Below are positions 27,528-56,295 of a stretch of DNA of 64,000 bases, piece by piece. Made by a program: the position numbers and the translations under genes. The notes beneath the pieces are model-generated. The model saw nothing but the letters and a program-made list of their open reading frames with translations. It was not told where the DNA came from and did no database searches. The stretch is from an uncultured Ulvibacter sp. (GTDB lineage Bacteria > Bacteroidota > Bacteroidia > Flavobacteriales > Flavobacteriaceae). Numbering within the stretch: the first letter of the stretch is position 1; each line of letters opens with the position of its first letter. The DNA is taken from NCBI GenBank assembly GCA_943789105.1, contig CALSSW010000001.1, positions 310,001 to 374,000 on the forward strand, in the 5' to 3' direction.

Positions 27528-27585
27528 CTTGTCAAACAAAAGTAGGTTATATTTAAACAAAACACTTGTTAAAAATTCCTAAAAG

Positions 27586-28786: not shown

Positions 28787-31195
28787 TTATTTGATAATTA
28801 CTTTCTTGGTAATAACTTGGTTTCCAGATTTTATCTGTACAACGTACAAACCACTTGCCAGGTTCTGGGTAGATACTCTCTGAGTTGCAGTTGTAGTGTT
28901 TAATAGAGTTTGTTTTACTACAACTCCTAACATAGAGAAAAGCCTAACATCTAGTTGCTGTAAATCTGGTGTGATTCCAGCTATAGTGACAAAGCTATCT
29001 GTATTTGCTTTGTATACATTTAGCGTATTTATACCAAGGGTGTCTCCACTAGATAGTACGCTATTGTCCTTAAAGACAATAAAGAATCTATCTGCTCCGC
29101 TAAGATTACTTTGCGCCGTTAGCTCAAAGTCTCCGTCTTTTAGTGAAGTAAGGGTACCGTTTAGGGTATCTTCTAGATATACAGAGATATCTTGAGGCAG
29201 TTCTATATCTGAAATACTAATAGTAAAGGCCTGTCCTGCATTTTGCCGTATCTCTAGAGGCACTCTAGTGTTTTGCAAATCATCAATATCCATAGCATTT
29301 ATAGCAAATGCTGTTTCTTGGCTTCCTTGGGCCAGTCTTGAATTTAGTTTTGTTGACTGGTTGTATGCTGCTGCATCGTATCCAGGATCAAGACCTAGGG
29401 TAAGACCATCTCTAAAGTAGAAATTGGTCGCTGCTCTTTCTATCTCACCATTGTAAAGCTTTAATCCTACATTGTAAGTAAGTAGCTGTGGTCCTTGAAT
29501 AAAATCTCCAGTTCCTATAGAAGTACGCATAGCAGCTGTAAAATTAAGAGCGGCATCTGATGTGCCTGCTGCAGCTACCCAAAACCCTTGACCAGGAGCT
29601 ATTGAAAAACCACTTGCAAGTTCATTGTAAATATCGTAATCAGAGCCATTCCAACCATATACAGCCAAGAACTCACTATCAATAACAGAACTGTTTGCAT
29701 CTATAAAGTTAGTAACTCCTGCAGCAGTATTTCCTGATATATATGAAGGAAAAGGGTTTGATACCAAATTCCACCTTCTACCTCCAGCGCCGTTTGCATG
29801 GTTGTTAACAATATTGATACTTTGATCTGTTGTCTGCAAAGCACCAGCGAAGGCTACTGTGGTTCCAGGTACGCCACCTGCTGGAGGTGGGGGCAGATCA
29901 CCTTGCGCCATTGCCAATGCATACCCTTGCGCAGGTGTAAAGCTTCCTGTGTCTGTGTCTGTGGCATATCTAGTATACTGTCCAGTTGCATTATCATACT
30001 GGGCAAATGCATAATCATCACCAAGTACTTGTATGTTGGCTCCATTTGCCGTTATAAAATCTTCAATTGTCATGCCGGTAGGGGCTCCTACAAAATCCCA
30101 ACCACCACCATCGAGGTCGTCATATACATTTACAAATCTATTGTAAATGACATCTCCACTAGCAGTTCCTTCCACAATTAAAGAAGAAAAATCATCTGCT
30201 GTAGAATTTAAAGTAACACTACCACTGTTTGTAAAATCTCCAGAAACTGTCAAAGAAGATGTTTCGTCTATGGTTAAACTACTTGCTGATGATAAAGTAA
30301 TATTATTGGCTATGGCTGCTGTGGTGTTTCCAGCTTCAATTGTTTGTCCAGCTGTTATGGAAACATCTGTGTATGATGATGGCACTTTACCCGAATCCCA
30401 GTTGGCAGCAGTTGACCACTGATTATCACTGGTTGTATTAGTGAAAATGCTTGGAAATAATGTATCTTCATCTATCAATTTAACACTTGATACCGAAAAA
30501 CTTTCTGTAGTGGTCGCATCACCATCTTGAAGGGTAACTGTTCTGAAAAAACCATACAAATTACCATTAACAGCCCCATTGTAAACACTTGTACTTTCAA
30601 TCCCATTTTGGTCAAATGCAGCATCAGTATATTCTCCGGTTGTTCTATTGATTAGCTTTGCTGTTACAGTAGAGGTTGATGCACTATTACCCAATAAAAA
30701 AGATACTTTAACAGTCAAATCCTCATTTTTCCATGTATCGATAGTCCAGCCCTCAATATAAGCAGGTGTGGATGATAGGTTACCCCCTGCACGCCTCTCC
30801 ATTTTTAGTTTACCGTTAGTTAGTGCTTTTAAGTAAATAAATTGTCTGTCGCTACCCCCTGAAGATGTTGTTCCTCCTGCGTTAAAACCAATTTGTGCAA
30901 TAAATGTATTACCAGTATATCCAAGATCACCTCCAAATTTCATATCAACCTCAAAAGTAATTGTTTCACCTTCCGATATTGATTGAGATTGCCCCCAAAA
31001 AGCATCAGCAGTATTAGACTGAGTAGCTACACTTTCATTTGTCGTGTTAACATAAAAAAACTGACCACCCCAATTTGTATTGTTGCTCAGTAAACCATCG
31101 GCATAACCTTCTGCAGATTTAAAGTTTGTTGTAGTTTGAGCAGTTAAAAAACTTGTCGTTATGATAAGAAATATCAATGTATAAATAGTTTTCAT
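28787..31195 (-). CDS. T9SS-secreted protein with the shared N-terminal module
   Basis: This 802-residue secreted protein has a signal peptide ending at LTAQ, and then a module (about residues 21-250) that resembles the N-termini of the larger GH86 enzyme and of the 308-residue protein further along (NFKSAEGYADGLL ... NWGG; ITFEVDMKFGGDL; LTVKVSFLLGNSAS; VYNGAVNGNLYGFF). The middle (about 255-700) is a long beta-rich region (NQWSTAANWDSGKVP, FVGAPTGMTIEDF) seen in many Flavobacteria surface proteins. The last 70 residues are a T9SS type A sorting domain ending GLYVVQI and KKVIIK. No catalytic motif was found. It is divergent from the GH29 gene and likely belongs to the PUL as an adhesin or binding protein. 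Confidence 0.75.
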   Translation of the reverse strand: MKTIYTLIFLIITTSFLTAQTTTNFKSAEGYADGLLSNNTNWGGQFFYVNTTNESVATQSNTADAFWGQSQSISEGETITFEVDMKFGGDLGYTGNTFIAQIGFNAGGTTSSGGSDRQFIYLKALTNGKLKMERRAGGNLSSTPAYIEGWTIDTWKNEDLTVKVSFLLGNSASTSTVTAKLINRTTGEYTDAAFDQNGIESTSVYNGAVNGNLYGFFRTVTLQDGDATTTESFSVSSVKLIDEDTLFPSIFTNTTSDNQWSTAANWDSGKVPSSYTDVSITAGQTIEAGNTTAAIANNITLSSASSLTIDETSSLTVSGDFTNSGSVTLNSTADDFSSLIVEGTASGDVIYNRFVNVYDDLDGGGWDFVGAPTGMTIEDFITANGANIQVLGDDYAFAQYDNATGQYTRYATDTDTGSFTPAQGYALAMAQGDLPPPPAGGVPGTTVAFAGALQTTDQSINIVNNHANGAGGRRWNLVSNPFPSYISGNTAAGVTNFIDANSSVIDSEFLAVYGWNGSDYDIYNELASGFSIAPGQGFWVAAAGTSDAALNFTAAMRTSIGTGDFIQGPQLLTYNVGLKLYNGEIERAATNFYFRDGLTLGLDPGYDAAAYNQSTKLNSRLAQGSQETAFAINAMDIDDLQNTRVPLEIRQNAGQAFTISISDIELPQDISVYLEDTLNGTLTSLKDGDFELTAQSNLSGADRFFIVFKDNSVLSSGDTLGINTLNVYKANTDSFVTIAGITPDLQQLDVRLFSMLGVVVKQTLLNTTTATQRVSTQNLASGLYVVQIKSGNQVITKKVIIK

Positions 31196-31575
31196 AATTT
31201 TTGTTTTAGTTATAAATCACCTTAGTTTTTTAATTTTCATTTTATATTGCGTTACACAAAACTACTTTTAGTCAATTTTTTTTGAAAATGTTATATAAAG
31301 TATAAGCTAATAGAAAAAGATGTCTAGATTTTAATTTAAATATCTAAAACAAAAAAAACAATAATTATAATAACAGATTGTCAATAATGTGCTTTTTAAT
31401 ACAACTTATATTCAATTTTAAACTATTATTTTTATCAAAAATTCAATCAGCCATGTAAGCAAAAATTAAAAAAATAGATCTTTTGAGTTAAAAAATCAAT
31501 TTATTGTATAGTTCAGAACATCTCAATAAAAAGACCATAATAGATTTAACTTAATTTGTTTAAATAATTTAAATT
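31196..31575. other. 380-base AT-rich divergent intergenic region
   Basis: This gap separates the minus-strand T9SS protein gene from the plus-strand GH29 gene and should hold both promoters. On the minus strand TAGTTTTG (31258-31265) matches the -7 element about 63 bases before the T9SS gene, without a good -33. I found no ORF, RNA gene or strong hairpin in it. Confidence 0.5.
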
Positions 31576-32937
31576 ATGAAAAAAATAATCTGTTTAGTTA
31601 TTTTCTGTTCGATGACATTAAATACTTTGGCACAAATAAATTCAGAAACAAAATCTGAAAAAATGGAACGGATGGAGTGGTGGACAAAAGCGCGCTTTGG
31701 AATGTTTATCCATTGGGGGCTATATGCTCTTCCAGCTAGACATGAGTGGGTAATGAGTAATGAAAAAATGTCAAAGAAAACATATGAAAAATATGCTAAT
31801 TATTTTGACCCCGATTTATACAATCCAACACAGTGGGCCAAATTAGCGAAAAAAGCAGGGATGAAATATGTGGTTTTCACTGCAAAACATCATGACGGGT
31901 TTACGATGTATGATTCAAAATATACAGACTATAAAGTAACCAACACGCCCTACGGAAAGGATGTTATGAAAGAACTAGTTGACGCTTTTAGAGCAGAAGG
32001 AATTCGTATTGGGTTATACTATTCTCTCATTGATTGGCACCATCCTGATTTTCTAGTAAAAGACCCCATTCATCCAGAAAAAAACAATAAAAAAGAACTA
32101 GCAAAAGACTCAAGTCGAGACCTTAAAAAATTTCAAAAGTATTTAAAAAATCAATTAACAGAAATTCTCACAAATTACGGACAAATTGATATTTTATTTG
32201 CCGACTTTTCTTATCCGCAAAAAGAAAACGGAAAAGGAAAATCGTATTGGAATTCAGAAGATTTGTACAAACAAATTAGAAAGCTCCAACCGCAAATTAT
32301 AATAAATGACAGACTCGATTTAAGAGAAGAAGGTGGATGGGATTTTATGACTCCCGAACAATTCATGCCCAAACAATGGGTTACCTATAAAGGGGAAAAA
32401 GTACCTTGGGAAACATGTCAAACTTTTTCTGGATACTCTTGGGGATATCACAGAGACGACCGCTCATGGAAAAGCACAGAACAAACTATTGTAATGCTGA
32501 TTGAAACAGTTAGCAAAGGGGGTAATTTATTACTCAATGTGGGACCAACCGCCAGGGGTATAATACAAGCGGATGCTGTCGATAGGCTTGAAGCTACACA
32601 CCAGTGGATGAAATATCACGATCGTTCTATTTATGGTTGCACAGCGGCCCCTGAGGAGTTCAAAAAACCAGATAATTGTTTATTAACATATAATCCTGAA
32701 ACAAAAAGGCTTTATGTACATGTACTAGAATGGCCGTTTAAAACAATTTATCTTCCTGGCTTAGCCGATAAAGTTGCTTATGCACAAATATTAAATGATG
32801 GTTCAGAACTAAAACTGAAGACAAAAAAAGGGGCTTGGCTTGACGATGTGAAAAGTGATGATAATGGCCTAACAATTACAATCCCTGTTACAAAACCAGA
32901 TGTAGAAATACCTGTTATTGAAATTTTCTTGAAGTAA
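31576..32937 (+). CDS. GH29 alpha-L-fucosidase/alpha-L-galactosidase
   Basis: This secreted 453-residue exo-glycosidase has a signal peptide ending near NTLAQ and the GH29 barrel signatures FGMFIHWGLYALPARHEWV, KYVVFTAKHHDGFTMY and IGLYYSLIDWHHPDF. Asp210 in IDILFADFSYP sits where the family nucleophile is found. GH29 removes terminal alpha-L-fucose; members in red-algal galactan loci, such as that of Bacteroides plebeius, act on alpha-L-galactose. With sulfatases and GH86 around it, L-galactose is the more likely substrate here. It starts the plus-strand run GH29-sulfatase-sulfatase-GH2. Confidence 0.9.
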   Translation: MKKIICLVIFCSMTLNTLAQINSETKSEKMERMEWWTKARFGMFIHWGLYALPARHEWVMSNEKMSKKTYEKYANYFDPDLYNPTQWAKLAKKAGMKYVVFTAKHHDGFTMYDSKYTDYKVTNTPYGKDVMKELVDAFRAEGIRIGLYYSLIDWHHPDFLVKDPIHPEKNNKKELAKDSSRDLKKFQKYLKNQLTEILTNYGQIDILFADFSYPQKENGKGKSYWNSEDLYKQIRKLQPQIIINDRLDLREEGGWDFMTPEQFMPKQWVTYKGEKVPWETCQTFSGYSWGYHRDDRSWKSTEQTIVMLIETVSKGGNLLLNVGPTARGIIQADAVDRLEATHQWMKYHDRSIYGCTAAPEEFKKPDNCLLTYNPETKRLYVHVLEWPFKTIYLPGLADKVAYAQILNDGSELKLKTKKGAWLDDVKSDDNGLTITIPVTKPDVEIPVIEIFLK

Positions 32938-32955
32938 TTTTTATTTCTTATTTGT

Positions 32956-36100: not shown

Positions 36101-36143
36101 TTATAATGGCTGTCAATTACAAAATAATATAAATTTTAATAAA

Positions 36144-38639
36144 ATGATACAAAATCTCATCAAGTTTCTCTGGTTAATTTTAGTGTTCATGGTCTCTTGC
36201 AACACGGTCATAGAAAATACAGAGCCTGTTAGTTTTAATGAAGGATGGAAATTTTACAAGGGTGAAGCTAGTAATGCACAATACCTAAGTTTTGATGATT
36301 CTAGCTGGCGAAATCAAAATTTACCACACGATTGGGCCATTGAAGGGCCATTTGATATCCAATACAATGCTAGATGTGGAGGATTACCATTTCATGGAGA
36401 AGGCTGGTATAGAAAGTCTTTTAATATTTCTAAAAATGCAAAAGGGAAACACGTAACACTTCATTTTGATGGTGCTATGTACAATGCTAAGATATGGCTA
36501 AATGGAGTTTTAATTGGTCATCGACCAAATGGTTATATAGGGTTTTCTATAGACTTGAGTGAACACCTAAGTTACGGGGGAGAAAATCTCATTGCAGTTC
36601 AATTAACTCCAGAAGATTTATCTTCTAGGTGGTACCCTGGTGCAGGAATCTATCGAAACACATGGTTAGAAATAAACAACCCTGTTCATGTTGCTAAATG
36701 GGGAACATTTATTACAACCCCTAAAATTACAGATGAATTAGCCAATATTAATATTCAAACTGAAATTGAAAATACCACATCAATAAATAAAACTATTACG
36801 ATTGAGACCCAAATTTTTTCTAAAGAAAATCAAGAGTTGAGTTCTGTTTCTGAAACTATTTCTGTGAAAAAAAATGAAATATCCATTGTTAACCAAAGTT
36901 CCGAAATAGTAAACCCAAAATTATGGGGCTTACAATCGCCCTACCTCTATAGAGCTGAAACTAAACTATTTGAAAAAGGCAATTTAATTGACACCTACAA
37001 TACCACATTTGGTGTTCGGACAATTGAGTATGGAAGTGACTTTGGATTTAAACTAAATGATGAACCTACTAAATTTCAAGGGGTGTGTCTTCATCATGAT
37101 CTTGGGCCTTTGGGAACTGCTGTAAATAGAAGAGCTACAGAGCGTCAACTAGAAATCATGCAAGAAATGGGGGTTAATGCCATTCGTACCAGTCATAATC
37201 CACCATCGCCAGAACAGGTGCAACTTTGTGACCAAATGGGATTGATGATTCAAGTCGAGGCCTTTGACATGTGGAAAAAACCCAAGGTTGAAAATGGCTA
37301 CAGCAAATTTTTTAACCAGTGGCACGAACAAGATTTAAGAGATATGATTCGTGCTTTTAGAAACAGTCCTTCTGTTGTTATGTGGAGCATCGGCAATGAA
37401 ATTTTAGAACAAAGTGATAAAATTAATGGAGCAGTCATAGCAAATGAATTAGCATTAATTTGTGAAGAAGAAGATCCAACCCGACCCACCACAGCAGGTT
37501 TTAATTATTATCCAGCCCCTATTAAAAATGGTTTAGCAGACGCTATTGATTTAGTTGGTTGGAATTATAAACCTAGAAAATATAAAGAAATTATTGATCA
37601 GCAACCAGATTGGATTATTTACGGATCAGAAACATCAAGTACTGTAAGTAGTCGAGGAGTGTATCATCTCCCAATTGAAAAATACGAACTTCATGAATCA
37701 CTTCAAATTACAAGTTATGATTTAATTGGTCCTCCCTGGGCCTACCCCCCAGATATTGAGTTTGAATCTTTAGAAAATAATCCAAATAACTTAGGAGAAT
37801 TTATTTGGACAGGATTTGATTATTTAGGAGAGCCAACCCCTTTTGGTGGCAAGGACAACTCTACTAACGGCTACTGGAATGGTGATTGGCCAGCAAGAAG
37901 TTCCTACTTTGGGGCGGTCGATCTGTGTGGTATACCAAAAGACCGATTTTATCTTTATCAAAGCCAATGGACTACAAAGCCAATGGTTCATGTACTTCCT
38001 CATTGGAATTGGAAGGGTATGGAAGGAAAAGAGATCCCTGTTTTTTCATATACCAATTGTGATGAAGTAGAATTATTTGTAAATGGTAAATCTTATGGAA
38101 AAAAAATTAAAGGAATTGACAAAACACCTATTCCAATTAATTTTATTGATTGGGAAGGTGGCCGATACCAAGGCGATTTCATGTCACCCTACAGGTTACA
38201 TTGGAATGTTCCCTATCAAGCAGGCGAAATTAAAGTGGTAGGATTTATTGATGGAAAAAAAGTTACAGAGAAACTAATAAAAACTGCTGGAAAACCTGCT
38301 AAAATAGAACTCATTGCAGATCGTGAGCTCATCAAATCTGATGGTGAAGACATGGTATTTGTAACCGTACGTGTAGTGGATAAGGAGGGTAATTTGTGTC
38401 CAAATTCAGACAATCTTATAAACTTTGAGATTGAAGGGCAGGGCGCCATAGTTGCTGTGGGAAATGGTAATGCAGCAACCACAGAGCTCTTTCAATCTAA
38501 CAAACGAAAGGCTTTTAGTGGCCAATGTATGGTTTTTATCAAAGCTTCTAGAGAGGCTGGACACATCAACTTAAAAGCAACATCAGAAGGGCTCACTAAA
38601 GCACAAGTTCAAGTACAAACCAAAAGGGTAATCAATTAA
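36144..38639 (+). CDS. GH2 beta-galactosidase-like lipoprotein
   Basis: This 831-residue glycoside hydrolase has a lipobox near VFMVSC. It shows the GH2 sugar-binding jelly roll (about 25-200, with LPHDWAIEGPF and GEGWYRKSF), the immunoglobulin-like domain, and the catalytic barrel with acid/base Glu419 in WSIGNEILE and candidate nucleophile Glu496 in IIYGSETSS. C-terminal beta-sandwich domains follow (YTNCDEVELFVNGKSYGK). In a galactan PUL it most likely releases D-galactose from oligosaccharide ends. Its stop overlaps the convergent regulator gene by 8 bases. Confidence 0.9.
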   Translation: MIQNLIKFLWLILVFMVSCNTVIENTEPVSFNEGWKFYKGEASNAQYLSFDDSSWRNQNLPHDWAIEGPFDIQYNARCGGLPFHGEGWYRKSFNISKNAKGKHVTLHFDGAMYNAKIWLNGVLIGHRPNGYIGFSIDLSEHLSYGGENLIAVQLTPEDLSSRWYPGAGIYRNTWLEINNPVHVAKWGTFITTPKITDELANINIQTEIENTTSINKTITIETQIFSKENQELSSVSETISVKKNEISIVNQSSEIVNPKLWGLQSPYLYRAETKLFEKGNLIDTYNTTFGVRTIEYGSDFGFKLNDEPTKFQGVCLHHDLGPLGTAVNRRATERQLEIMQEMGVNAIRTSHNPPSPEQVQLCDQMGLMIQVEAFDMWKKPKVENGYSKFFNQWHEQDLRDMIRAFRNSPSVVMWSIGNEILEQSDKINGAVIANELALICEEEDPTRPTTAGFNYYPAPIKNGLADAIDLVGWNYKPRKYKEIIDQQPDWIIYGSETSSTVSSRGVYHLPIEKYELHESLQITSYDLIGPPWAYPPDIEFESLENNPNNLGEFIWTGFDYLGEPTPFGGKDNSTNGYWNGDWPARSSYFGAVDLCGIPKDRFYLYQSQWTTKPMVHVLPHWNWKGMEGKEIPVFSYTNCDEVELFVNGKSYGKKIKGIDKTPIPINFIDWEGGRYQGDFMSPYRLHWNVPYQAGEIKVVGFIDGKKVTEKLIKTAGKPAKIELIADRELIKSDGEDMVFVTVRVVDKEGNLCPNSDNLINFEIEGQGAIVAVGNGNAATTELFQSNKRKAFSGQCMVFIKASREAGHINLKATSEGLTKAQVQVQTKRVIN

Positions 38640-42810: not shown

Positions 42811-42873
42811 AATGCAAAATTCGGTTTTAGAATTAAAGTCTAAACTTACAAATAATAATATTTATTGATAGGG

Positions 42874-42903: not shown

Positions 42904-42981
42904 ATTTGAGTAAACAAAAAATAATGATATAAATTAACTTTAAAAATTATTATACTTTTTAACTTTCTTATTTTAAATTTT

Positions 42982-45900
42982 ATGACAGATAAAAATAATT
43001 TTAAATTAAATGTATGCTATAGTTTTTTTAAGCATGTTGTGCTTATGAGTATACTATTACTGAGTTTAAAAGTTTCCAGTCAATCCCCAGCTGTCAAAGG
43101 GACTGTTCTTAGCGAAGAAAGCGGTCAACCAATACCTGGCGTTACAGTAATCATAAAAGGAACCTCTACAGGCACCACCACAGATTTTAATGGTCTTTAT
43201 ACGATAGATGCTGCCTTAGAGACTATTTTAGTATTCAGCTATGTTGGTTTAGAAGAAGTAGAGCTTACCGTAACTAAACCAATACATAATATTTTGATGA
43301 AAGAAAACCTTACAGGTTTAGATGAAATCGTTGTAGTGGGATATGGTACTGCCAAAAAACGCGAACTAACAGGAGCAATTTCTTCAGTAAAGTCTAAAGA
43401 CTTAAACAAAACTGTTACTTCAGATTTTGCTACTGCTATTCAAGGAAGAATGGCTGGTGTGAGTGTCAGACAAGGCAATGCTGCTCCTGGAGAAAATGCC
43501 AATATTACCATTCGTGGAATAACCTCTTTTCAAGATGGAGGCTCAGGGCCCTTATATGTTGTTGACGGGGTTACATACATTGAAAATCCAAATATTACCC
43601 CTCAAGAAATAGAATCAATAGAAGTTTTAAAAGATGGTGCTTCAGCGGCAATTTATGGCTCTCGAGCATCTGGAGGTGTCATTTTAATTACAACAAAAAA
43701 AGGAAAAGAAGGACAGATGAAAGTGAGCTTGGATTCGTATTACGGAGTTCAAAACATTACTTCGGGACTTCCTCTGGCAAATACCTTAGAAGCATTGTAT
43801 ATTAATGATTTACAGTACAGGTATGATGAAGATTTTAATTACCCTGATAATTACCCTAACCCGCTAGATCAAAATCCAGACGGATTAGAATACAATACAG
43901 ATTGGATGAACTTACTTCAGGTTGATTTAGCGCCTATTGAAAACCACTCTCTTAATGTAAGTGGTGGAAAAAATGGGTTAACATACAGCGTGATTGGAAC
44001 ATTTTTTAATCAAACTGGTGCACTTATTAATTCTGAATACAAAAAGCAATCTTTAAGAAGTAATACAGGTTTTAAAAAAGGTAAATTTACAGTACAGGCA
44101 AATTTAAGCACGAATTTTAGTGAGCAAAAAAGAGAACCCTACGGCATCATTTATGATGCAATTAGACTACAACCCTACAGGCCACCTTTTGACATTACTT
44201 CAGATGTTTTTCAAACCAACTTTGATAATGATGATCAAAATACACTGAGAATTTCAAATTTTGCCGGGAAAACTCAAGCAAGAAAGTTCTAATAAAATAA
44301 ATAATTTCAATGCCAATATACAGCTTGCATATGAAATAGTTGAAGGGCTAACAGCGCGAGCAAATATTGGACGATCCTTTTACAACAAAAAAGATCGATT
44401 TTTTCAGCCAAGTTTCCAGATTTTGAGAGAAAACGGAGAAATTAACCTTGGCGCTAGTAATTTAAATGCGCAACTTAGATTAGGAGATGCCACAAGCACC
44501 AGAAGTATAGATGAATTTACATTAAACTACACCAAGAGCCTCAAAAAACACAATTTTAAATTTTTATTTGGCAATACTTACGAATCTTCTACATATGAAT
44601 TCTATAGAACTGGCGCTAACAATATTACAAGCAACCTCACACCTGTATTAGGGAATGGTGATCCCATCGTTGGCACTCAAACCATTAACAAAACAGAGCG
44701 TATTTCTTACATTGGTACGTGTCAATTACAATTACAACTGGAAGTATCTATTAAGTGTGGTAGTCAGAAGAGATGGGTCAAGTAATTTTGGTAACCAAAA
44801 GTATGGAACCTTTCCATCTATCTCTGCAGGATGGACTTTTTCAAATGAACCTTTTTTTAAAAATTTAAAAAACACTATTTCCTTGGCAAAATTGCGACTT
44901 GGGTATGGTACCACGGGTAGTGACAGGATACCACCTTATAGTTACAGTCCAATCGTGATTGCAAATGTAGATTACATACTTGGAGAACAGCCTAATTTAA
45001 TTTCGGGTATGACACAACCAGGCTATGTTGATCCTAATTTAAAGTGGGAGACTAACATAAGTAAGAACATTGGTTTAGACTTTAAATTTAAAGGTGGTAA
45101 AGCTGGGCTCGAAATCGATCTTTATGAACAAAACAAGAAAGATATGCTGCTTGCAATTACAACACCAATTTCTGCAGGATCAACGCCCGTAAATGGAGAA
45201 ACCTATGACCGTTTTTTGACCAACATAGGAGATTTAAGAAATAGAGGTGTTGAAGTCAGTGCTCATTACAATCACAAATTTGGACCAGTGGGTTTAAAAT
45301 TTAGTGGAAACTTTACCAAGAATAAAAATACAGTTGTTAGTCTTTCTAGAGAAGGAGAAATAATCTTTGATGGGTATCCTAATATCATCAGAGTAGATCA
45401 AAATGAACCTGTTGCAGTGCTTGAAGCTGGTCTGCCTGTTGGTGCTTTTAAAGTCTATCAAACAGATGGAACTATAAAAACAGACCAGGAGTTAGAAATT
45501 TATCAACTTTTAGACCCCAATGCTCAAAAAGGGGACCTAAGATATGTTGATACCGATGGAAACGGCGTGTTAAATAATAATGATAAAGTATATAAAGGGT
45601 CCTATCAGCCAGATTTTGAAATTGGTTTTAACCTGTAGATGCTAATTACAAGAATTTTGATTTTTCTGCTCAATTCTATGGTGTTAGTGGTAACACTATC
45701 TATAATGGACAGAAACAATATGCTTACAGTACAAAAAGACATAGAGATTTGGTTAACAGTTGGAGCGATGAAAACCCTACATCAAACATACCAACACCGC
45801 GGTCAGGTATCGAACACCCTAATGTAAATACCGCAACAGATTATTTTCTAGAAGATGGTTCCTTTTTAAGATTGCGAAACATTATACTTGGATACTCTTT

Positions 45901-46096
45901 GCAAAATAATTTACTTGATAAAATTGGGATAGAAAATTTCCGAGTTTATATTAACGCCCAGAATGCTATCACCTGGACCAATTACAGTGGATTTGATCCA
46001 GAGGTTGGAAGCAGCAATCCTTTTAACGGAGGGCTAGATAGAGGAAACTACCCAGTAACTGCAACATACAGTGCAGGTGTCTCAATTACATTTTAA
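42982..46096 (+). pseudogene. SusC-family TonB-dependent transporter, interrupted by three frameshifts
   Basis: The repaired protein of about 1037 residues is an outer-membrane SusC importer. It has a signal peptide, a carboxypeptidase-regulatory-like domain (VKGTVLSEESGQPIPGVTV), the plug with NITIRGITSFQDG and PLYVVDGV, and a long barrel ending in an aromatic residue (VSITF). Frame changes occur at about 44262-44285 (FAGKTQ to SSNKINNFNANIQL), at about 44717 (SYIG to RVNYNYNWKYLLS) and at about 45635 (IGFN to DANYKNFDFSAQFYG). Each needs a single-base correction, and the family sequence is intact between them, so sequencing error is more likely than decay. It would import galactan oligosaccharides with the SusD partner. 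Confidence 0.9.
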
Positions 46097-46116
46097 TTCT
46101 TTTAATTGCAAAAAAA

Positions 46117-47760: not shown

Positions 47761-47798
47761 AACTAATTTTTAGATACATAGTCATTAAATTAAGTATT

Positions 47799-49279
47799 AT
47801 GAAAGCATACATTAACAAGATAGCAACCATCGGTATTGTATTTTTAGTAATCATTGCCTGTCAAAAAGACGATGCGATCCCGCAATACAATTTCTCAGAT
47901 GCCATAGCAACATCTGGTGATAAAAGAATTCAAAGAGACGATTTTGCTTCTTTTGCGGATTTATCTAAAGGAGTTATTAGCAGAACCTGGACCATACCAC
48001 AATCAGCATCAATAATTAACCTTGAAGGAAGAGACCCCTCTGAAATGGATCTTATTCAAGTGCTATTTGTAGAACCCGGTCAGTTTGAAGTCAATTTAAA
48101 AGATGAATTTATAGATTCTGCAGTAGAGCTCGATACAACTTTCAATGTAACTGTTCTGGATTATATTCAAACAAATTTTGATGTTATTTCCATAGATTCT
48201 GATTTTTATGAAGAAACTCCAACTCAAATAACAATGTATGAAGGTGGCACCATTACATTTCAAGACGTCTCTTTAGGTAATCCAAACAGACGAAAATGGA
48301 CACTGCCTGGTGGTGATCCTTCCTCTGCAGGTGGAATAAGCATTGAAGAAGATGATCAAGTTAGCACCATTGCCGTAAATTATGCCACAACCGGAACCTA
48401 TGATGTAGAGTTAATTTCTTGGAGACAATACCCTGAGGGGGCTGCTGATACCTTACGAATTCCCAATTATATCAATATAGTTGAAGCACCAGAACCCTAC
48501 CAATTATAAATAGCATAAATGAAAAAATTAATGGAGAAATCCATTTAAAGTATAATGTCGAATTACAATCTTCAAGTGATTTAACTTCTTATTTTAGCTT
48601 AAAATTTGATGATCAGGACATAGAAATATCAAGTGTAGAGATACACCCTGATGACAATACTATTTTAAAAATTATACCAGACACCAATTCTTCATCTGGA
48701 AGCACAAGGCCAATACTCTCTGTTGCGTTACTTACCTATAACGGCGAGGGAGATTTGTCAAAATTAAACAATCCAAATGTCGAAGTTCCCGCATTTATTG
48801 ATATGGAGGTTTCACACGAAATATATGGCTTTGAAGATGGTGGCCTGGGCTGGGATGTAGCATGGCAATGGGATAATGTTGGAGAAATCACTTACCCAAC
48901 CAATAATCCTGCTACGGGCAAATACAGCATGAAGATGGAAGCTACTTCAGACCAAAGATGTAGAGCATACAACAAAGTATCTGGGTCTTATTTCAATTTG
49001 GATAGTAGCAAGAGCTATACTATTGAATTTAAAATATGGATTGACTCAAACTACACCGATACTAATATTTTTCCAGAGGTAATTCTCTCAGATCAGTGGG
49101 TAGGAGAAGGGTTTTGGACTTCTGTCGAGGGTTTACCCAGAGACCAGTGGATAACAGTAAATAAAGAAGAGACAAAAATATGGAACCCTGATGTATCTGG
49201 AGAATATTTCTTTTCTTTTAGATTCCAAAAAATTGGAATTGCTTTTATTGATGATATCAAGATTTATGAAATAGAGTAG
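47799..49279 (+). pseudogene. PKD-containing surface glycan-binding lipoprotein, one frameshift
   Basis: The gene follows susD and encodes about 493 residues when repaired. It has a lipobox (LVIIAC), two PKD-like domains (RTWTIPQSASIIN and RRKWTLPGG), a linker, and a C-terminal beta-sandwich resembling carbohydrate-binding domains (YGFEDGGLGWDV ... GKYSMKMEA ... AFIDDIKIYEIE). The frame changes near 48497-48503: NIVEAPEP continues as IINSINEKINGEIHLKYN in another frame. The position after susCD and the layout fit a surface glycan-binding protein (SusE/F-like function). Confidence 0.75.
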
Positions 49280-49311
49280 TCTATAATAGATATATAAAGC
49301 CCTTTAAGTAT

Positions 49312-51117
49312 ATGAATTTTAGCCTGAAGATTTTTCTTTTAGTAATCATAATAGCATCAAACAATAGCCTATGTGCTCAGGTAAACGTTGTACTAGTTGA
49401 GCCAACGGTTAAAAAATTTATAGGGGATGTTTCTGAACTTGATAGATCAAAATATTTTAATATACATGCGCCAGGTAAAACACCATTACTTGAATCGTTT
49501 TATGAACAATATAATGTTGAACAGTCAGGAAGAGGATTTTATGGACCTGGTATAGATGCCAAAAAACTAATGGGAGAAGTTGGGTTATATCCTAAATCAA
49601 ATAACAAAAAAAGTAATAAACCCAGACCCATAAGTAGATATGTAGCTACAGAACACCCCAGAAATATTTATAAAGAGGGAATAGATATAGAAGCTGCCGC
49701 TAAGTGGGCGGTGAGCTATTTTAAAAATACAAAACAAGGCAATACTCCATTGTGGTATGAACCAATGAACGAGCCGTTTGTTCACGCAAAAGATTTTTAT
49801 GAAGAAAAAGATTGGGACCCTGTAGCAGAGCTCAGAGTTAAAACAGAGATGTCTCAGCTATTTAGAGCATTGGCAGAAAAAATTCATGCAGATCCTGCTT
49901 TAAAAAATATTAAAGTTATGGGCTATGGAGCTGCTTGGCCATCTTTCGAGCTAAAGGATTTTCAAAATTGGGAAACCAATATGGGTCTTTTTTTAGATAT
50001 TGCCGGTGATCAACTCGATGCGATTTCCTATCATCTATATGATGGTATCAACCAAGTTGGGCAAGAAAACAAACGCTCTGGAAGTAACAATGATGCCATT
50101 ATGGACCTTGTCGAGACATACAGTTACCAGCGCTGGGGCATAATCAAACCGCACGCCATCACAGAATACGGTGGTATAGCCAAAAAAGAATTCTCATTAA
50201 TCAGTAATATGCAATCGATCCGTTCACAAAATGCTATGATATTTGGACTGTTGGATCGTGAAGATCGACTAGAAATTTCCATTCCTTTTACAACAGATAA
50301 TGCCAAATGGCACATTACTAAAGCAAATGATTATTTACCCTATAAGGCTGTTTTGTGGAGGGCAGAAAACATGGGTGTACCAAAAAATCAAATTACAGGT
50401 TGGGTCTATACCAATAGGATACAATTTTATGAGTTATGGAAAGCGGTAAGGGGAGAAAGGGTTTTCGTATCAACATCAAATCCAGATATCCAAGTCCAAG
50501 GCTTTTTAGATGAAAAAAAATTATTCGTTGCGCTAAATAACCTAGACGATAATGCACAACAAGTTGCATTAGATCTTAGCTCCATAAAATCTAATGTTAA
50601 AGATTTATTGGTAAAATCATTAACCATTTACAAGGAGGATTTTCCTCTATATTATGAAAAAACTATAAGCAGTATCCCTGAAGTATTTTCTATAGATCCT
50701 GCACAGACAATAGTTCTAGAGTTTAATTTAAATAATACCATTTTATTCAAGAACCAAATTAAATCTAATCGGTACTATAGTAGTAATTACCTAATTCCAA
50801 TTAAAGCAGATAAAGAGTTGGTATTTGAATTTAATGATGTTGACCTCGGAGTTGGTTTTGCAAAATTGAGCATGAGTTTAGGAAGAGAACATGATTTATC
50901 AAAAGCTCCAGAGGTTCTAGTCAATGGAGAAAAAGTTGAGGTACCATCAAACTGGAAAGGATATGACCAAGCCAATAGAAAAAAGTTCTTTGGTGCAATT
51001 GAAATCCCAATTCCAATGGATTTTATCGTGAAAAACAATACTGTTAAAATTTATTTTCCAGATACTGGGGGACATTTAAGTTCTCTAATTTTGGATATAG
51101 AAACAATTATAAATTAG
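49312..51117 (+). CDS. GH86 beta-agarase/beta-porphyranase (periplasmic form)
   Basis: This 601-residue glycoside hydrolase has a signal peptide ending near LCAQ and no sorting tail, so it is probably periplasmic. Family GH86 features include DRSKYFNIHAP, catalytic acid/base Glu154 in WYEPMNEPFVHA and nucleophile Glu285 in HAITEYGGI. The C-terminal part (about 400-600) forms the beta-sandwich domains usual in GH86. GH86 enzymes are endo-acting on agarose or porphyran; which one cannot be settled from sequence. It has a paralogue immediately downstream, 11 bases away. Confidence 0.92.
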   Translation: MNFSLKIFLLVIIIASNNSLCAQVNVVLVEPTVKKFIGDVSELDRSKYFNIHAPGKTPLLESFYEQYNVEQSGRGFYGPGIDAKKLMGEVGLYPKSNNKKSNKPRPISRYVATEHPRNIYKEGIDIEAAAKWAVSYFKNTKQGNTPLWYEPMNEPFVHAKDFYEEKDWDPVAELRVKTEMSQLFRALAEKIHADPALKNIKVMGYGAAWPSFELKDFQNWETNMGLFLDIAGDQLDAISYHLYDGINQVGQENKRSGSNNDAIMDLVETYSYQRWGIIKPHAITEYGGIAKKEFSLISNMQSIRSQNAMIFGLLDREDRLEISIPFTTDNAKWHITKANDYLPYKAVLWRAENMGVPKNQITGWVYTNRIQFYELWKAVRGERVFVSTSNPDIQVQGFLDEKKLFVALNNLDDNAQQVALDLSSIKSNVKDLLVKSLTIYKEDFPLYYEKTISSIPEVFSIDPAQTIVLEFNLNNTILFKNQIKSNRYYSSNYLIPIKADKELVFEFNDVDLGVGFAKLSMSLGREHDLSKAPEVLVNGEKVEVPSNWKGYDQANRKKFFGAIEIPIPMDFIVKNNTVKIYFPDTGGHLSSLILDIETIIN

Positions 51118-51128
51118 CTTTGTACTGA

Positions 51129-53870
51129 ATGAAAACAAAACTTATCAATTTCCTAATAATTTTTTTAGCGACAAGCCTCATTTGTGTTTATGGACAAAAC
51201 GTAGTTAACTTCACATCAGATGAGGGTTTTACTAATGGCCCTCTTTATAGTCAAGCCAATTGGGATGCAAATTTTCAATCTACAACTTGGATGGTTGATG
51301 CCAACCAAGGATTAGTTACTACCTCTGGCGAGTGGAAAAGAGCAGCTTGGGAGCAAGGATTTTCCTTGTCTGGAGTTGGGGATAAAATTACCTTTAGAGT
51401 TGATTTAAATTTGTCTGGAGAGCTTGTTGCTCAAAACAATCCATTAATAAAAATTGGTTTTAGTGCCTCAAGTGATGTTGGAAGTTCTAGCCCAGCGACA
51501 GCTACTGTGTTTCTCTCTACAACAGCCGATAACGAGGATAACCCTGGGGGATCTCTTCAGCTAAGAAATAACAATAATACTCAGCCATTGAGTATAGAAA
51601 CCTCTCTACCACTGTCTGATTGTCAAGGACCTAATGGAATATCAGATGATCTGTCGGTTATTGTCTCACTTACTTTGGGGGAAAACGCAAGTTCCTCTAT
51701 AATTTCTGCTAGACTTGTTAATGTGACTGACGGTACTTCTTCAAGTCTTGGGAGTTATAATGGGATAGACAATCAAGTATATGATGCAGCAACATCCAAT
51801 ATGTTTGGATATTTTCATGCACAATCTTTTAAATTAGGAAATACATTATCCTCAATCAATGTAAAAAAAGTAAGCATATCCACCAACATTGATATCTTTC
51901 CAAAAATCAAACGAATGATTGGAGATATTTCAACTTTAGATCGTAGTAAATATTTTAATATTCATTCAGGACCTGATGACGTTGAACCTGGCTTCTACAC
52001 AGATTATAATGTGAGCCAAAGTGGAAGACAATTTTGGTCACCAGGGTCAGCTGCCATACAAATTACGGGAGAAGAAGGAGTTGGCAACTACCCACCCCCG
52101 CTTTCTGGAGATACAGAATTACGCGAAGTTAGGAGGTATATAGCCACTGATCATCCCTATAATGTTTATGAAGAAGGGTTAGACCCAATACCATTTGCTG
52201 ATTGGACTGTTGAATATTTTAAGAATTATGTAAATACATTTTTAAGGCCAGAATATTACGAGCCTATGAATGAACCTTTTGTAAATGCAAGAAATTTTTA
52301 TGAAGAACCGGATTTTGATCCTATCGCAGAGGCTAGGGTGAAGCTAGAAATGACTCAATTTTTTAAGTATGTTGCACAAAAAATTCATGCTGCTCCAGAG
52401 TTAGATAATATGAAAGTACTAGGGTACGCTGCAGCATTTCTATCATTTGAAAAGAATGATTTTTCTATTTGGAATCAAAATATGAAGATGTTCATGGATG
52501 AAGCTGGTCAAGACATTGATATTTTTTCAACCCACATTTACGACGGAATTAATCAGATTGGGCAGGATACTAGAAGATCTGGAAGTAATATGGAAGCTAT
52601 ATTAGATTTAATTGAAACCTACAGCTATTTTAAATGGGGAGTTATTAAACCACACGCCATTACAGAATTTGGTGGAATTGTAAATGGAGATTATACCGAT
52701 ATAAATAATATTCAATCGATACGTTCTCAAAACTCGATACTTTTTGGACTTTTGGAAAGAACCGATCGAATGGAAATTGCAATGCCATTTACAACTGGGA
52801 AATCCACATGGCATATTACAGAAGAAAATAATTATATGCCCTACAAGGCTATACTATACAAGCCAATACCAATTGGGGTTCCATTAGACCAAGTTACCGG
52901 TTGGGAATACACTAGCAGAATACATTTTTATGATTTATGGAAGGATGTGCATGGTGAGAGAATTTTGATTCGCTCAGACAATATGGACGTCTTGGCCCAA
53001 GGTTTTATTGATGCAAATAAATTATACGTGGCTTTAAACAACCTAGATGATTTTGAACAGCCCATTAATTTAAATTTCAATGGATCTTTACCTGATATAT
53101 CAGAGTTGAAAATTAAATCTTTAATCGTAAACCCCAATACCAGTGCTGAATATACTACTCAAAACTATACAGAACGTCCAGAAACCTATTTGCTAAAAAA
53201 AAATGAAACAGTTGTAATTGAGTTTACCTTCTTAGAGCCTATAATGAGTGAAAACCTGATTCAAAAACAGCGATATTACAGTGTAAATCATATGCAGCCC
53301 ATACAAGCTAATAATTCAATTAATTATAACTTTAGTAACATTAACTTGACTGGAGACTCTGGATTTGCAACTCTTTCAATGAGTATTGGAAGAAAACATG
53401 ATCGTTCTAAATCTCCTAATATTATTGTAAATGGCGTATCTATTAACGTACCAAGCAACTGGAAAGGATATGACCAAAGTGAAAGAGATGATTTTTTTGG
53501 AACTATAGAAATTCCTGTTCCCATTGGTATTATCCAAGAAAACAATACGGTTTCGATCACATTTGATGATTCGGATGGGTATCTAAGTTCTTTAGTGCTA
53601 ACGATTGAAACCTATGATTCATCAATACTAGGAATTGATTCAAATCAAACAAACATCAAAAACATTAAACTATACCCCAATCCCACAACTGGTAAATTAA
53701 ATATCTTAAATGCTGAAATAAATAGTTTAATTTCAATCTACTCAACATCAGGAGTAAGAGTTTTTACAGGAAAATACAAGGGCTTTCCTATCAACCTAGA
53801 ACAACTCACTGATGGACTTTATTTTATTAAAATAAATAATACCACCCTAAAGGTGATCATCAAACATTAA
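51129..53870 (+). CDS. GH86 enzyme with novel N-terminal module and T9SS sorting tail
   Basis: This is a 913-residue secreted enzyme. After a signal peptide (ending VYGQ) comes the shared module (about 24-250, with NFTSDEGFTNGPL and LTLGENASSS), then a GH86 catalytic part (about 258-835; DRSKYFNIHS, acid/base Glu382 in YYEPMNEPFVNA, nucleophile Glu513 in HAITEFGGI), and a T9SS type A C-terminal domain (about 845-913; LYPNPTTGKLNI, DGLYFIKI). It should be exported to the cell surface or medium and make the first cuts in the chain. The catalytic region is clearly paralogous to the upstream GH86. Confidence 0.92.
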   Translation: MKTKLINFLIIFLATSLICVYGQNVVNFTSDEGFTNGPLYSQANWDANFQSTTWMVDANQGLVTTSGEWKRAAWEQGFSLSGVGDKITFRVDLNLSGELVAQNNPLIKIGFSASSDVGSSSPATATVFLSTTADNEDNPGGSLQLRNNNNTQPLSIETSLPLSDCQGPNGISDDLSVIVSLTLGENASSSIISARLVNVTDGTSSSLGSYNGIDNQVYDAATSNMFGYFHAQSFKLGNTLSSINVKKVSISTNIDIFPKIKRMIGDISTLDRSKYFNIHSGPDDVEPGFYTDYNVSQSGRQFWSPGSAAIQITGEEGVGNYPPPLSGDTELREVRRYIATDHPYNVYEEGLDPIPFADWTVEYFKNYVNTFLRPEYYEPMNEPFVNARNFYEEPDFDPIAEARVKLEMTQFFKYVAQKIHAAPELDNMKVLGYAAAFLSFEKNDFSIWNQNMKMFMDEAGQDIDIFSTHIYDGINQIGQDTRRSGSNMEAILDLIETYSYFKWGVIKPHAITEFGGIVNGDYTDINNIQSIRSQNSILFGLLERTDRMEIAMPFTTGKSTWHITEENNYMPYKAILYKPIPIGVPLDQVTGWEYTSRIHFYDLWKDVHGERILIRSDNMDVLAQGFIDANKLYVALNNLDDFEQPINLNFNGSLPDISELKIKSLIVNPNTSAEYTTQNYTERPETYLLKKNETVVIEFTFLEPIMSENLIQKQRYYSVNHMQPIQANNSINYNFSNINLTGDSGFATLSMSIGRKHDRSKSPNIIVNGVSINVPSNWKGYDQSERDDFFGTIEIPVPIGIIQENNTVSITFDDSDGYLSSLVLTIETYDSSILGIDSNQTNIKNIKLYPNPTTGKLNILNAEINSLISIYSTSGVRVFTGKYKGFPINLEQLTDGLYFIKINNTTLKVIIKH

Positions 53871-53873
53871 AAA

Positions 53874-55265
53874 ATGTCTATTAGGTCTTTTTTTGCGTCC
53901 TTTTGTATATTCGGATTCATTTTTTTTAATTTACAAGAACTGAATGCCCAACAAAAGACTTCTAAAACTTTTAAAAGTGGAGATACTGTTTGCTTTTTAG
54001 GAGATAGTATCACTCACGGTGGGCAGTTTCATGAATTTCTGCAACTTTTTTATGCAACTCGGTACCCAAACATAGCGCTAACTTTTTTTAACTGTGGTAT
54101 CTCCGGAGATAACGCAGAAGGTATGAGTTACAGATTTAAGGATGATGTACTTATGCATAATCCAAGTCATGTATTTTTTATGACTGGCATGAATGATGTG
54201 ATACGAACACTCTATTTTGAGGGTCAAGCTTCTGATGAGGTTATAATAAAGCGAAAAAATGCGCTAGCTGTGTATAAACAAAACACGGATATATTAGCAA
54301 GTATATTTGGAGCATCTCAGATAACTCCAATCTATCTTACCCCACCAATTTATGACCAATACTCGAAAATTGAAAAAGAAAATAACTTTGGTTGCAACGA
54401 TGCCCTTATAGAATGCTCTAACCATATTAAATCAATTGCCAATCAGTATGATGCAACTGTTGTTGATTTAAATACTCCAATGAAAAAAATTATGGATCGA
54501 GAGCTTAAAAATGATTCATTGTTCACCATAATTGGCCAAGACCGAGTGCATCCAAAAACAACAGGACATTTCATTATGTTTCATGAAATTTTATCCACTC
54601 TTGAAACTCCAAGTGTTGTAGCTCAAATTTTAATTAATCTGAATCAAAATAATCGTATTAAAACAACGAACTGCTCTGTAAATGAGCTACAAGTTTCAAA
54701 AGAAAATATTCTTTTTAATTGCCAAGAAAACAGTTTGCCGTTTCCCTTTACTAAAGCATTTGATACAGCGCTTCGATTAGTTCCTTTTCAAAAAAAGTTT
54801 AACCAAGAAATCCTTCAAGTTATTGGGCTTGATAAGGGTAGCTATGATTTATTTATTCAGGATAAATTAATCAATACTTTTTCTGCCAAACAGCTTAATG
54901 AGGGTGTTAATCTTTCCAATGAGTTCAATACCCCGCAATACATACAGGCTAAAGAAATCATGAATCTTTGTCAAGAGTACCGAAAAACAGGCTATCAATT
55001 AAGAGCGGTTCCGTTTATAGCCTTTAAATACCTTCGCGATTATAATGGCCCAGATACGTTAAAAAACAAAAAGATATTTTTAGATAATCAACTCAAAAAA
55101 ATTGAAGGCCAACCTTTCTATAATTATATAAAAAAAAGTGTACATAAATATTATCAGACACTTCCAATACTTGATTCATTAAAAACTAGATTAAATCAAA
55201 TTGAGCATACTATATACAAAAAAAATAAGCCTAGAGCTATGAATTGGTCTATTGTCAGAAGGTAA
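53874..55265 (+). CDS. SGNH/GDSL hydrolase, probable carbohydrate esterase
   Basis: This 463-residue secreted hydrolase has a signal peptide ending LNAQ. All SGNH blocks are present: nucleophile Ser45 in FLGDSITHGG, the oxyanion residues in CGISGDN and TGMND, and the Asp223-x-x-His226 pair in DRVHPKTTGH. The domain ends near residue 240, and about 220 further residues of unrecognised sequence follow, longer than a normal GDSL esterase. It begins 3 bases after the second GH86 gene, so it is co-expressed with it. A role in removing acyl groups from the galactan is inferred. Confidence 0.82.
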   Translation: MSIRSFFASFCIFGFIFFNLQELNAQQKTSKTFKSGDTVCFLGDSITHGGQFHEFLQLFYATRYPNIALTFFNCGISGDNAEGMSYRFKDDVLMHNPSHVFFMTGMNDVIRTLYFEGQASDEVIIKRKNALAVYKQNTDILASIFGASQITPIYLTPPIYDQYSKIEKENNFGCNDALIECSNHIKSIANQYDATVVDLNTPMKKIMDRELKNDSLFTIIGQDRVHPKTTGHFIMFHEILSTLETPSVVAQILINLNQNNRIKTTNCSVNELQVSKENILFNCQENSLPFPFTKAFDTALRLVPFQKKFNQEILQVIGLDKGSYDLFIQDKLINTFSAKQLNEGVNLSNEFNTPQYIQAKEIMNLCQEYRKTGYQLRAVPFIAFKYLRDYNGPDTLKNKKIFLDNQLKKIEGQPFYNYIKKSVHKYYQTLPILDSLKTRLNQIEHTIYKKNKPRAMNWSIVRR

Positions 55266-55368
55266 AATTATTTTTAGAATTGATGATTTAAAATACAAAT
55301 TAGAACATTTGTAATATTTATTTACACCGTCTTGTTGTAATTTGGATTAAAATTAAATACAAAAAATT

Positions 55369-56295
55369 ATGAAAAAAATTTACACTTTATTATTTGTAAC
55401 CTCAATAATGTGCGTAATGAGTGCGCAAACTACAGTTGACTTTACTCTAGAGGAAGGTTACGTTCAAGGACCTCTTGATTCTAATCCAGACTGGGGAGGT
55501 GAAAACTGGTTTGTCAATCCAACACCTGGTACAGAAAGAGCAGAGACAACCGCTGGTTATTCATGGGCAAGATGGGGTAGTCCATTTATTGTTTCTGACA
55601 CTGAAATTAGTTTTGAAGTTCATTTCAAGTTTAATGTTGACTTACCAGCAGGTAAATTAATTTCGAGATTTGGTTTTAATGATAATGGTTCCAGTTCTGG
55701 TACCATTGCTAACATACAACTTTCTACACTAAATGATGGCTCCCTTTCTATCAGAAAACAAGGAAATACTCCTGTTGATAGTGGTTCTGCAGGATTAACT
55801 GACTTCCAGCAAGATGATTTAGTTATAAACATGGTACTAACTCTAGGCGCTGATGCCGCAAGCTCAAGCATGTCCTCAACTATTACAAATGTTACAGATA
55901 ACATTAACTCGGGTGTAGCTGTCGTTAATGGAATCCCTGCGGCTGTTTTTAATGCTGCAACTTCTGGAGGTATTTCTGGTTTTATTCATGCTCAAGATAA
56001 CATTGGTAACACAAGAAGTTTTTTGGTTGATAAAGTTGTCATGACACAAGGAAGTACTTTAAATGTAGATTCTCATAGACTTCCAACATTTAACTTATCA
56101 CAAAATCCAATTCAAGATATTGTAAAGCTCAATGGAGTTACTACAGGAAGTGAAATTTCTATTTATACCGTTACGGGAGCTAAAGTAAACAATTATGTTT
56201 ATGATGGTAATCAATTAAACTTAGGACATCTAAGTCCTGGAGTTTACTTTATGCAAGTGCCTGGGTATATAACTCAAAAACTAATAAAGAAATAA
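55369..56295 (+). CDS. T9SS surface protein made only of the shared module
   Basis: This 308-residue protein has a signal peptide ending MSAQ, the shared module at about residues 21-235 (VDFTLEEGYVQGPL, NPDWGG, ISFEVHFKFNVDL, LTLGADAASSS, GFIHAQD) and a T9SS type A sorting domain at about 240-308 (FNLSQNPIQDIVKLNG, SPGVYFMQV). It contains no enzyme domain, so the module must have its own function, most simply polysaccharide binding on the cell surface. It lies between the esterase genes of the PUL. Confidence 0.75.
   Translation: MKKIYTLLFVTSIMCVMSAQTTVDFTLEEGYVQGPLDSNPDWGGENWFVNPTPGTERAETTAGYSWARWGSPFIVSDTEISFEVHFKFNVDLPAGKLISRFGFNDNGSSSGTIANIQLSTLNDGSLSIRKQGNTPVDSGSAGLTDFQQDDLVINMVLTLGADAASSSMSSTITNVTDNINSGVAVVNGIPAAVFNAATSGGISGFIHAQDNIGNTRSFLVDKVVMTQGSTLNVDSHRLPTFNLSQNPIQDIVKLNGVTTGSEISIYTVTGAKVNNYVYDGNQLNLGHLSPGVYFMQVPGYITQKLIKK

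Follow-up and report, generated by a model that had tools for sequence, protein, structure and literature searches.

The closest described counterparts of the locus presented here are polysaccharide utilization loci (PULs) for porphyran. One of these is the PUL of Bacteroides plebeius, in which BpGH86A, BpGH29, BpGH2C, and BpS1_11 form the characterised pathway in the portion of PMC12316285 that describes it, and to which BpGH86B also belongs. In the sections of PMC10108472 that deal with bloom Flavobacteriia, GH29-GH86 PULs are called putative porphyran PULs and are not among the notably expressed PULs of their metagenome-assembled genomes (MAGs); the examples there include GH29-GH86 PULs of North Sea Aurantivirga and a PUL predicted to target porphyran in a Prosiliicoccus MAG. 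Among carbohydrate-binding modules (CBMs), a table in PMC11122601 lists CBM99 as porphyran-binding with fold unknown and CBM101 as an agarose-binding beta-sandwich, and a porphyran-binding CBM16 is attributed to Mei et al. 2024 where PMC11678492 cites it. Here, we describe a protein module that occurs in three copies in a 64,000-nucleotide stretch of an uncultured Ulvibacter sp. (Flavobacteriaceae; assembly GCA_943789105.1, contig CALSSW010000001.1, positions 310,001 to 374,000 of the forward strand), hereafter the window, in and near a PUL of this type. By prediction it is a jelly roll of the concanavalin-A/L-type-lectin kind, it probably binds glycans, and in one gene of the PUL it appears to have been replaced between relatives in front of a retained secretion tail.

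The three carriers are an 802-residue protein with a type IX secretion system (T9SS) tail, which we call T9_802, a 913-residue GH86 enzyme, and a stand-alone protein of 308 residues, P308. W denotes the window locus, G000 the genome to which it belongs, L0xx the loci of relatives, and the suffix sa a stand-alone protein. The features concerned are as follows.

28787-31195, minus strand: gene for T9_802, carrying module copy 1.
30476-31138, minus strand: module copy 1, T9_802 residues 20-240 (homology; profile match to residues 20-243; AlphaFold2 model, pLDDT 87.5).
51195-51890, plus strand: module copy 2, residues 23-254 of the 913-residue GH86 enzyme (homology; profile match).
55369-55425, plus strand: signal peptide region of P308 (read from the sequence by eye; compared between loci).
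55426-56070, plus strand: module copy 3, P308 residues 20-234 (homology; profile match; AlphaFold2 model, pLDDT 90.1).
56095-56292, plus strand: T9SS C-terminal sorting domain of P308, its last 66 residues (TIGR04183, 27.2 bits; cut-off 23).

A first-pass annotation, made from the letters of the window, had proposed that these segments are homologous, and pairwise blastp bears this out: the T9_802 and GH86 modules are 29.8% identical over 238 columns (E 5.9e-18), those of T9_802 and P308 30.9% over 223 (E 7.6e-20), and those of GH86 and P308 35.3% over 232 (E 3.5e-21). Smith-Waterman scores for the same pairs (212, 224, and 247) are roughly threefold the maxima reached in 1000 shuffles per pair (69, 76, and 79), which rules out chance similarity. 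The positions first given for the segments were correct to within about 30 bases, and the module does lie directly after the signal peptide, with one copy fused to GH86 and another standing alone. Its landmarks (F-x3-EG[YF]-x2-G-x-L, a W at position 23, I-x-F-x-V-[DH], L-x-L-G..A-S, and G-[YF]) can be seen in the alignments, but they hold only approximately, the fourth reading FLLGNSAS in T9_802 and the last GFI in P308. No fourth copy was found in the window (profile search of ATG-started open reading frames of at least 80 amino acids) and no further copy elsewhere in its genome bin (2.1 Mb, 83% complete); in a genus-level search, the module was present in one of 11 genomes, the window's own.

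Each of the three carriers has a C-terminal sorting domain of T9SS type A (TIGR04183; 43.8, 34.1, and 27.2 bits), and would thus be exported by that system; the P308 tail falls just below the Pfam cut-off (PF18962, 26.9 against 27). P308 begins MKKIYTLLFVTSIMCVMSAQTT, with no lipobox evident by eye, and carries a T9SS tail, so that it does not have the make-up of a SusE/F or surface glycan-binding protein (SGBP) lipoprotein.

Searches of Pfam-A, NCBIfam, and the PDB sequences gave no believable match to the module. When 15 module sequences were compared with Pfam-A up to an E value of 10, only Ig_ZP2 (three members, best E 0.061) and Astro_capsid_N (one member, E 0.0013) appeared, both implausible, and none of the CBM, LamG, or lectin families with Pfam-A models rose over its curated cut-off. 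The PL7 and GH16 family profiles did not match, and a 15-member module profile found nothing among PDB sequences at E up to 10. The first-pass view that this is neither a named CBM nor LamG therefore stands at the level of sequence in these libraries, but not at that of the predicted fold, which is concanavalin-A-like, a superfamily to which we take LamG to belong as well.

AlphaFold2 models of the P308 module (pLDDT 90.1, pTM 0.89) and the T9_802 module (pLDDT 87.5, pTM 0.88) are not independent, since the same 15 sequences underlie both; the two modules are about 31-33% identical to one another and share the same predicted L-type-lectin jelly roll. Foldseek returned 172 and 110 PDB matches at E <= 0.001 (best E 1.4e-7 and 2.0e-7), and among the top 50 listed most are L-type lectins, namely, legume lectins and their relatives and the ERGIC-53/VIP36/Emp47 lectins. 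Template modelling (TM) scores, normalised to the query, are 0.42-0.59 for the lectins and their relatives in that list, with 6-15% identity among the lectin matches given there. Because both models give a concanavalin-A-like jelly roll, the fold is known, as a prediction, for a sequence family that has no name in the libraries searched. The likeness to L-type lectins (legume, ERGIC-53/VIP36) lies in this predicted carbohydrate-recognition fold; unlike them, the module has no Pfam lectin match, is borne on T9SS-tailed proteins of marine Flavobacteriaceae, and is partly fused to GH86. Domain X122 of Teredinibacter turnerae (TtX122B, PDB 8q2a, a domain of unknown function) is a weak fold match of the T9_802 model (E 1.7e-5, TM 0.46, 11% identity). 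The module also had fold matches to viral proteins in BFVD, and a viral origin was rejected, as these share the same broad fold only, with no sequence relative among viral contigs or phages in searches with the P308 module and, for the viral contigs, alignment A1.

The module may simply be a CAZy CBM family that the searched libraries lack, with CBM99 and CBM101 as the obvious candidates. As described in the table of PMC11122601, these bind the substrate class expected for this PUL. The distribution of the module speaks indirectly against such an identity, which we regard as unlikely: relatives came from seven loci in a one-pattern scan of genome_contigs (six from MAGs, one from an isolate) and from five of 397 genomes, and no cultured founder with a close copy is apparent. 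The porphyran-binding CBM16, as it is cited in PMC11678492, shares the expected ligand, and the module matches no Pfam CBM model. In the open-licence literature, the scope of our reading (subscription papers and CAZy lay outside it), no paper on the module or on its exchange was found.

Conservation of residues favours binding over catalysis, because aromatic positions are kept and no acid, base, or histidine is invariant. Among 18 aligned rows, F6, Y/F12, W23, an aromatic residue at 28, W/Y50, and F84 are near-invariant, and of the acids just E10, D130, and D131 are kept in 80% of rows or more, none of them invariant. The possibility that the module is an active or degenerate enzyme of PL7-, GH16-, or lyase-like type must be considered, since lyases, too, use the concanavalin-A fold: PL7 alginate lyases and an ulvan lyase occur among the PDB fold matches of the T9_802 model, and some of the viral matches are named alginate lyase. 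We regard it as very improbable: the module lacks a PL7 or GH16 profile match and an invariant acid, and the listed lyases reach TM scores of only 0.28-0.43, against 0.42-0.59 for the lectins. On these residues we rejected the module as an enzyme, and it appears to be without catalytic activity.

Copy 2 is a discrete domain appended to a carbohydrate-active enzyme, which is one trait of CBMs as a functional class, and a glycan-binding role for the module is likely. We consider it reasonably probable that this module, concanavalin-A-like and non-catalytic, binds glycans in the manner of a CBM, in three mounts: on an enzyme, as a stand-alone lectin, and on a stalked adhesin. Copy 2 would keep the GH86 porphyranase/agarase attached to its polysaccharide; P308, exported by the T9SS, would act as a surface lectin and capture chains for the PUL's own SusCD importer; and copy 1 would be the same kind of recognition head on a stalk, serving as a surface adhesin. 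The ligand here would be a galactan of the porphyran/agar type.

The genes around the module point to such a ligand, and those used in the comparison are listed below.

31576-32937, plus strand: GH29 alpha-L-fucosidase-family enzyme adjoining T9_802 (PF01120).
36144-38639, plus strand: GH2 family enzyme (typed by family).
49312-51117, plus strand: second GH86 enzyme, without the module, upstream of the fusion (PF18206 at G000:C1:360485, window 50485; synteny).
51891-53870, plus strand: GH86 catalytic region, accessory domains (Porphyrn_cat_1, BPA_C), and T9SS tail of the fusion (best PDB match 4aw7, from residue 259).
53874-55265, plus strand: SGNH/GDSL-type hydrolase between the GH86 fusion and the stand-alone gene (L026 ortholog PF13472; synteny).
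57286-58824, minus strand: sulfatase downstream of the stand-alone gene (L026 ortholog PF00884; about 80% identical to its counterparts in related PULs).

The nearest PDB relative of the window GH86 is the beta-porphyranase BpGH86A (4aw7, 465 bits), followed at 250-287 bits by a beta-agarase and two other related glycoside hydrolases. As far as the fetched stretches reach, the window, L021, L023, L024, L025, L026, and L027 share the gene order hybrid two-component system (HTCS), SusC, SusD, PKD protein, GH86, module-GH86, SGNH, module alone, esterase, and sulfatase; L024 has no esterase, and that of L021 is short. The HTCS, SusC, and SusD labels are what we take these genes to be from their sequences, and the assignments of GH86, SGNH, PKD (weak), sulfatase, GH29, and GH2 come from typing these genes or their orthologs. 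In L043, the GH86-SGNH-stand-alone part is kept, its GH86 being cut by the contig end, and the SGNH hydrolase holds the same position in eight loci. In the more distant L015, a stand-alone module adjoins GH86 in the company of GH16, two sulfatases, and a CBM6 protein.

The window's set of GH86, GH29, GH2, and sulfatases resembles the porphyran pathway as PMC12316285 outlines it, and SusCD is shared with the B. plebeius PUL as well; the present PUL differs in having a T9SS-tailed GH86, a stand-alone module protein, and an SGNH hydrolase, for some of which the B. plebeius PUL may have equivalents. The Aurantivirga and Prosiliicoccus PULs are likened to it by name, as GH29-GH86 or porphyran PULs, and the module is not mentioned for them in the sections of PMC10108472 concerned.

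Some peculiarities of the locus and its relatives were also noted. The window SusC (42982-46093) reads as four frame pieces, where relatives have single frames of 1026-1031 amino acids and the window SusD is intact, and the PKD/SGBP protein (47799-49255) is in two pieces, where relatives have single frames of 493-524 amino acids; both breaks are probably indel errors of assembly. The region holds three different esterase-type genes, at 58843-59955 (minus strand, with CE2_N), 53874-55265 (plus strand, the SGNH hydrolase), and 56384-57289 (plus strand, a BD-FAE-like alpha/beta hydrolase). To our knowledge, porphyran is not usually described as acylated; the natural substrate of the PUL may carry esters. 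Carotenoid-type genes border the region (window 24034-27560, minus strand), presumably a lycopene cyclase, a hydroxylase, a phytoene synthase, and a desaturase, to judge by their sequences. A third GH86 match, in a 772-amino-acid frame at G1099:C37:40149-40466, lies outside the conserved PUL, on a contig equal in length to that of L026.

A single-sequence search of 397 genomes of the same family (237 genera) found the module in five, all of them among the 21 that have GH86 (PF18206). The uncorrected hypergeometric probability of this is 2.5e-7, or 4.8e-6 without the window's own genome, values that are optimistic because genomes are treated as independent. A profile search of the 21 GH86 genomes returned the same five and a match in G019 (E 0.59), which was dropped as noise; the GH86-negative genomes were covered by the single-sequence search. 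In one small-genome genus of 17 genomes, four have the module; GH86 was found in three of these four but not in the remaining 13 genomes, and the contig of the fourth, G1102, starts inside the module. The module family is rare: G429 was the only addition from broad profile searches at the order level (395 genomes, with matches in G429 and the window's own) and the phylum level (395 genomes, with a match in the window's own). The scan of genome_contigs, which used a single 10-residue pattern, gave 18 pattern matches and from these the seven loci, the isolate being Polaribacter sp. AH-660-K13. There were no relatives in viral contigs (searched with the P308 module and alignment A1), plasmids (GH86 module), or phages (P308 module), and a DNA pattern for the N-terminal landmark found nothing, being too strict to be meaningful.

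These searches yielded 20 distinct copies: seven GH86 fusions, ten stand-alone proteins (one partial), two of the T9_802 type, and one 861-residue protein. A 21st, in G1127 (L069), is identical to that of L026 across 710 residues of the GH86 fusion. L069 is a contig of less than 4 kb in a genome of another genus or family, 100% identical to the L026 GH86 fusion, and L020 (G429) is likewise a contig of less than 4 kb in a genome of another genus or family, 98% identical to the window GH29 protein; either misbinning or very recent transfer could account for these two contigs.

The 861-residue protein (L012_861; G342, L012 8839-11421) is a T9SS protein that combines a divergent module with a bacterial surface Ig-like domain. 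Such a pairing, in a GH10/GH43 neighbourhood, is what one would expect of a domain with a structural or adhesive task and no specificity for the PUL substrate, that is, a generic surface lectin or a spacer attaching cells to algae or particles, and the mounting of the T9_802 module on a stalk that is reused with unrelated heads fits the same idea. It too strikes us as unlikely, and slightly more so than a CBM family missing from the libraries, given that 17 of the 20 copies are GH86 fusions (seven), stand-alone proteins in GH86 loci (nine), or L044, whose truncated contig carries the downstream genes of that PUL.

Besides the lyases among the fold matches, several observations weigh against a module that grips galactans for GH86 PULs. 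The modules have an acidic pI (4.05-5.05), which hardly favours the binding of a sulfated polymer, although acidity is common in marine proteins. The module is dispensable for GH86 function, as 16 of the 21 GH86 genomes are without it, and it is not essential to the GH86 enzyme of the PUL itself, because L027 has the stand-alone gene and a GH86 without the module. The association counts take related genomes and co-transferred PULs as independent. Finally, L012_861 lies near GH10, GH43, and a GH59-like protein, enzymes of the xylan type, so that the family is not limited to galactan loci. Of the original interpretation, a new carbohydrate-binding module for red-algal galactan, what survives is a discrete homologous module that no named Pfam-A or NCBIfam family claims and that structure prediction makes a lectin-type jelly roll; red-algal galactan as its sole role is too narrow in view of the divergent L012 copy.

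The T9_802 copy deserves separate mention for what the module is mounted on.

28787-30475, minus strand: remainder of T9_802, a stalk of about 490 residues and the TIGR04183 tail (residues 735-802), which recurs in the same genome with other heads.

This part has 11 matching places in the window's genome, itself included, some of them pieces of one gene. As its head on the stalk, L054 has a glycosyl-hydrolase catalytic core, L055 a reprolysin-like protease (split), and L051 a lamin-tail domain and, in a second gene, fn3/MAM domains; there are also an unassigned 1534-residue protein (L052) and a nearly headless form (L053). Where they align, these six are 63-88% identical to T9_802, and a seventh (L053 9062-9913) is 47% identical. 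Because the stalk recurs with other heads, T9_802 can be read as the recognition module of the PUL placed on a reused surface stalk. The stalk and T9SS tail, about 490-525 residues, are also multi-copy in the same-genus genomes G1121 and G1116, and are found in G045 at about 30-36%.

We now turn to the stand-alone gene, of which eight proteins from the same PUL slot were compared, at the protein level in all 28 pairs of the eight loci and at the DNA level in eight chosen pairs of the 28 possible. Two module trees were built, the first with all 20 copies and the second omitting L015_sa and L012_861 (long) and L044_234 (partial). Conflicting trees and mosaic DNA together show that in this gene the module has been replaced, with the T9SS tail kept and, in L023/L024, the signal peptide too. 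These two loci, both recorded as Polaribacter, are 84% identical in GH86, 71% in SGNH, 89% in the signal peptide, and 71% in the tail, but only 40% in the module. In 45-column windows of their DNA, identity is 61-88% in the leader and signal peptide, 35-64% in the module, and 73-91% in the tail (one later window, 55%). L023 and L024 are sisters in the trees of both GH86 (support 100/99) and SGNH (91/93), whereas a clade of their modules is rejected (approximately unbiased (AU) test, p 7e-51). A single clade of all eight stand-alone modules is rejected as well (p 1.5e-5), and a module clade of L021, W, L023, and L027 gave p 0.0036; these AU values are indicative, because the groups were named after the first tree had been seen and long branches are present.

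Could the apparent exchange be merely fast divergence of one ancestral module? Binding domains can outpace sorting tails, the L043 and L021 modules form long branches, and support for placing the L024 stand-alone module close to those of GH86 is only moderate to weak (first tree, 89/92; second, 76/68). Divergence in place is nevertheless quite improbable, given what each head resembles. The L023_sa module is 70-72% identical to those of W and L027, whose GH86 is less similar, and 40% to that of L024, its GH86/SGNH sister. The best cases of mosaic genes are L024 and L021: the L024_sa module is 61% identical to the module of its own GH86, and its tail shares 71% identity with those of the W and L023 stand-alone proteins against 44% with the GH86 tail, while the L021_sa module is 48% identical to that of T9_802 (grouping 100/99) and its tail is 61% identical to the P308 tail against 36% for T9_802.

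The pattern is not uniform. L025 and L043 are 83% identical in GH86, 86% in SGNH, 34% in the module, and 52% in the tail, and here the whole gene could have been replaced. Fisher tests of module against tail identity gave p <0.01 with the module lower in 15 of 28 pairs, which are not independent of each other; module and tail do not differ in some pairs (for example, W-L025, W-L026, L024-L025, and L024-L026), and for W-L027 and L025-L026 identity is lower in the tail than in the module (p 0.015 each). High identity of the signal peptide (89%) is confined to L023/L024 and L025/L026, other pairs having 21-58%.

More tentatively, we suggest that the module may serve porphyran PULs as a recombining recognition cassette. 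The head would be swapped in front of a kept tail (in L023/L024, behind a kept signal peptide), with donors resembling the head of the neighbouring GH86 (L024) or of the stalked adhesin (L021), and the genome would also mount heads on a multi-copy stalk, so that a population could switch the galactan variant it grips without rebuilding the PUL. The benefit of such exchange would lie in tuning ligand specificity.

For the biology of these bacteria, the exchange would make it possible to test whether glycan recognition at the cell surface evolves through slow change of one protein or through the exchange of ready-made heads. L023/L024 and L025/L043 are natural experiments in this respect, as their neighbouring enzymes are similar and their heads differ (40% and 34% identity). 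If the module binds porphyran or agar, it would provide a lectin-fold probe for red-algal galactans and would help explain how planktonic Flavobacteriaceae recognise sulfated galactans.

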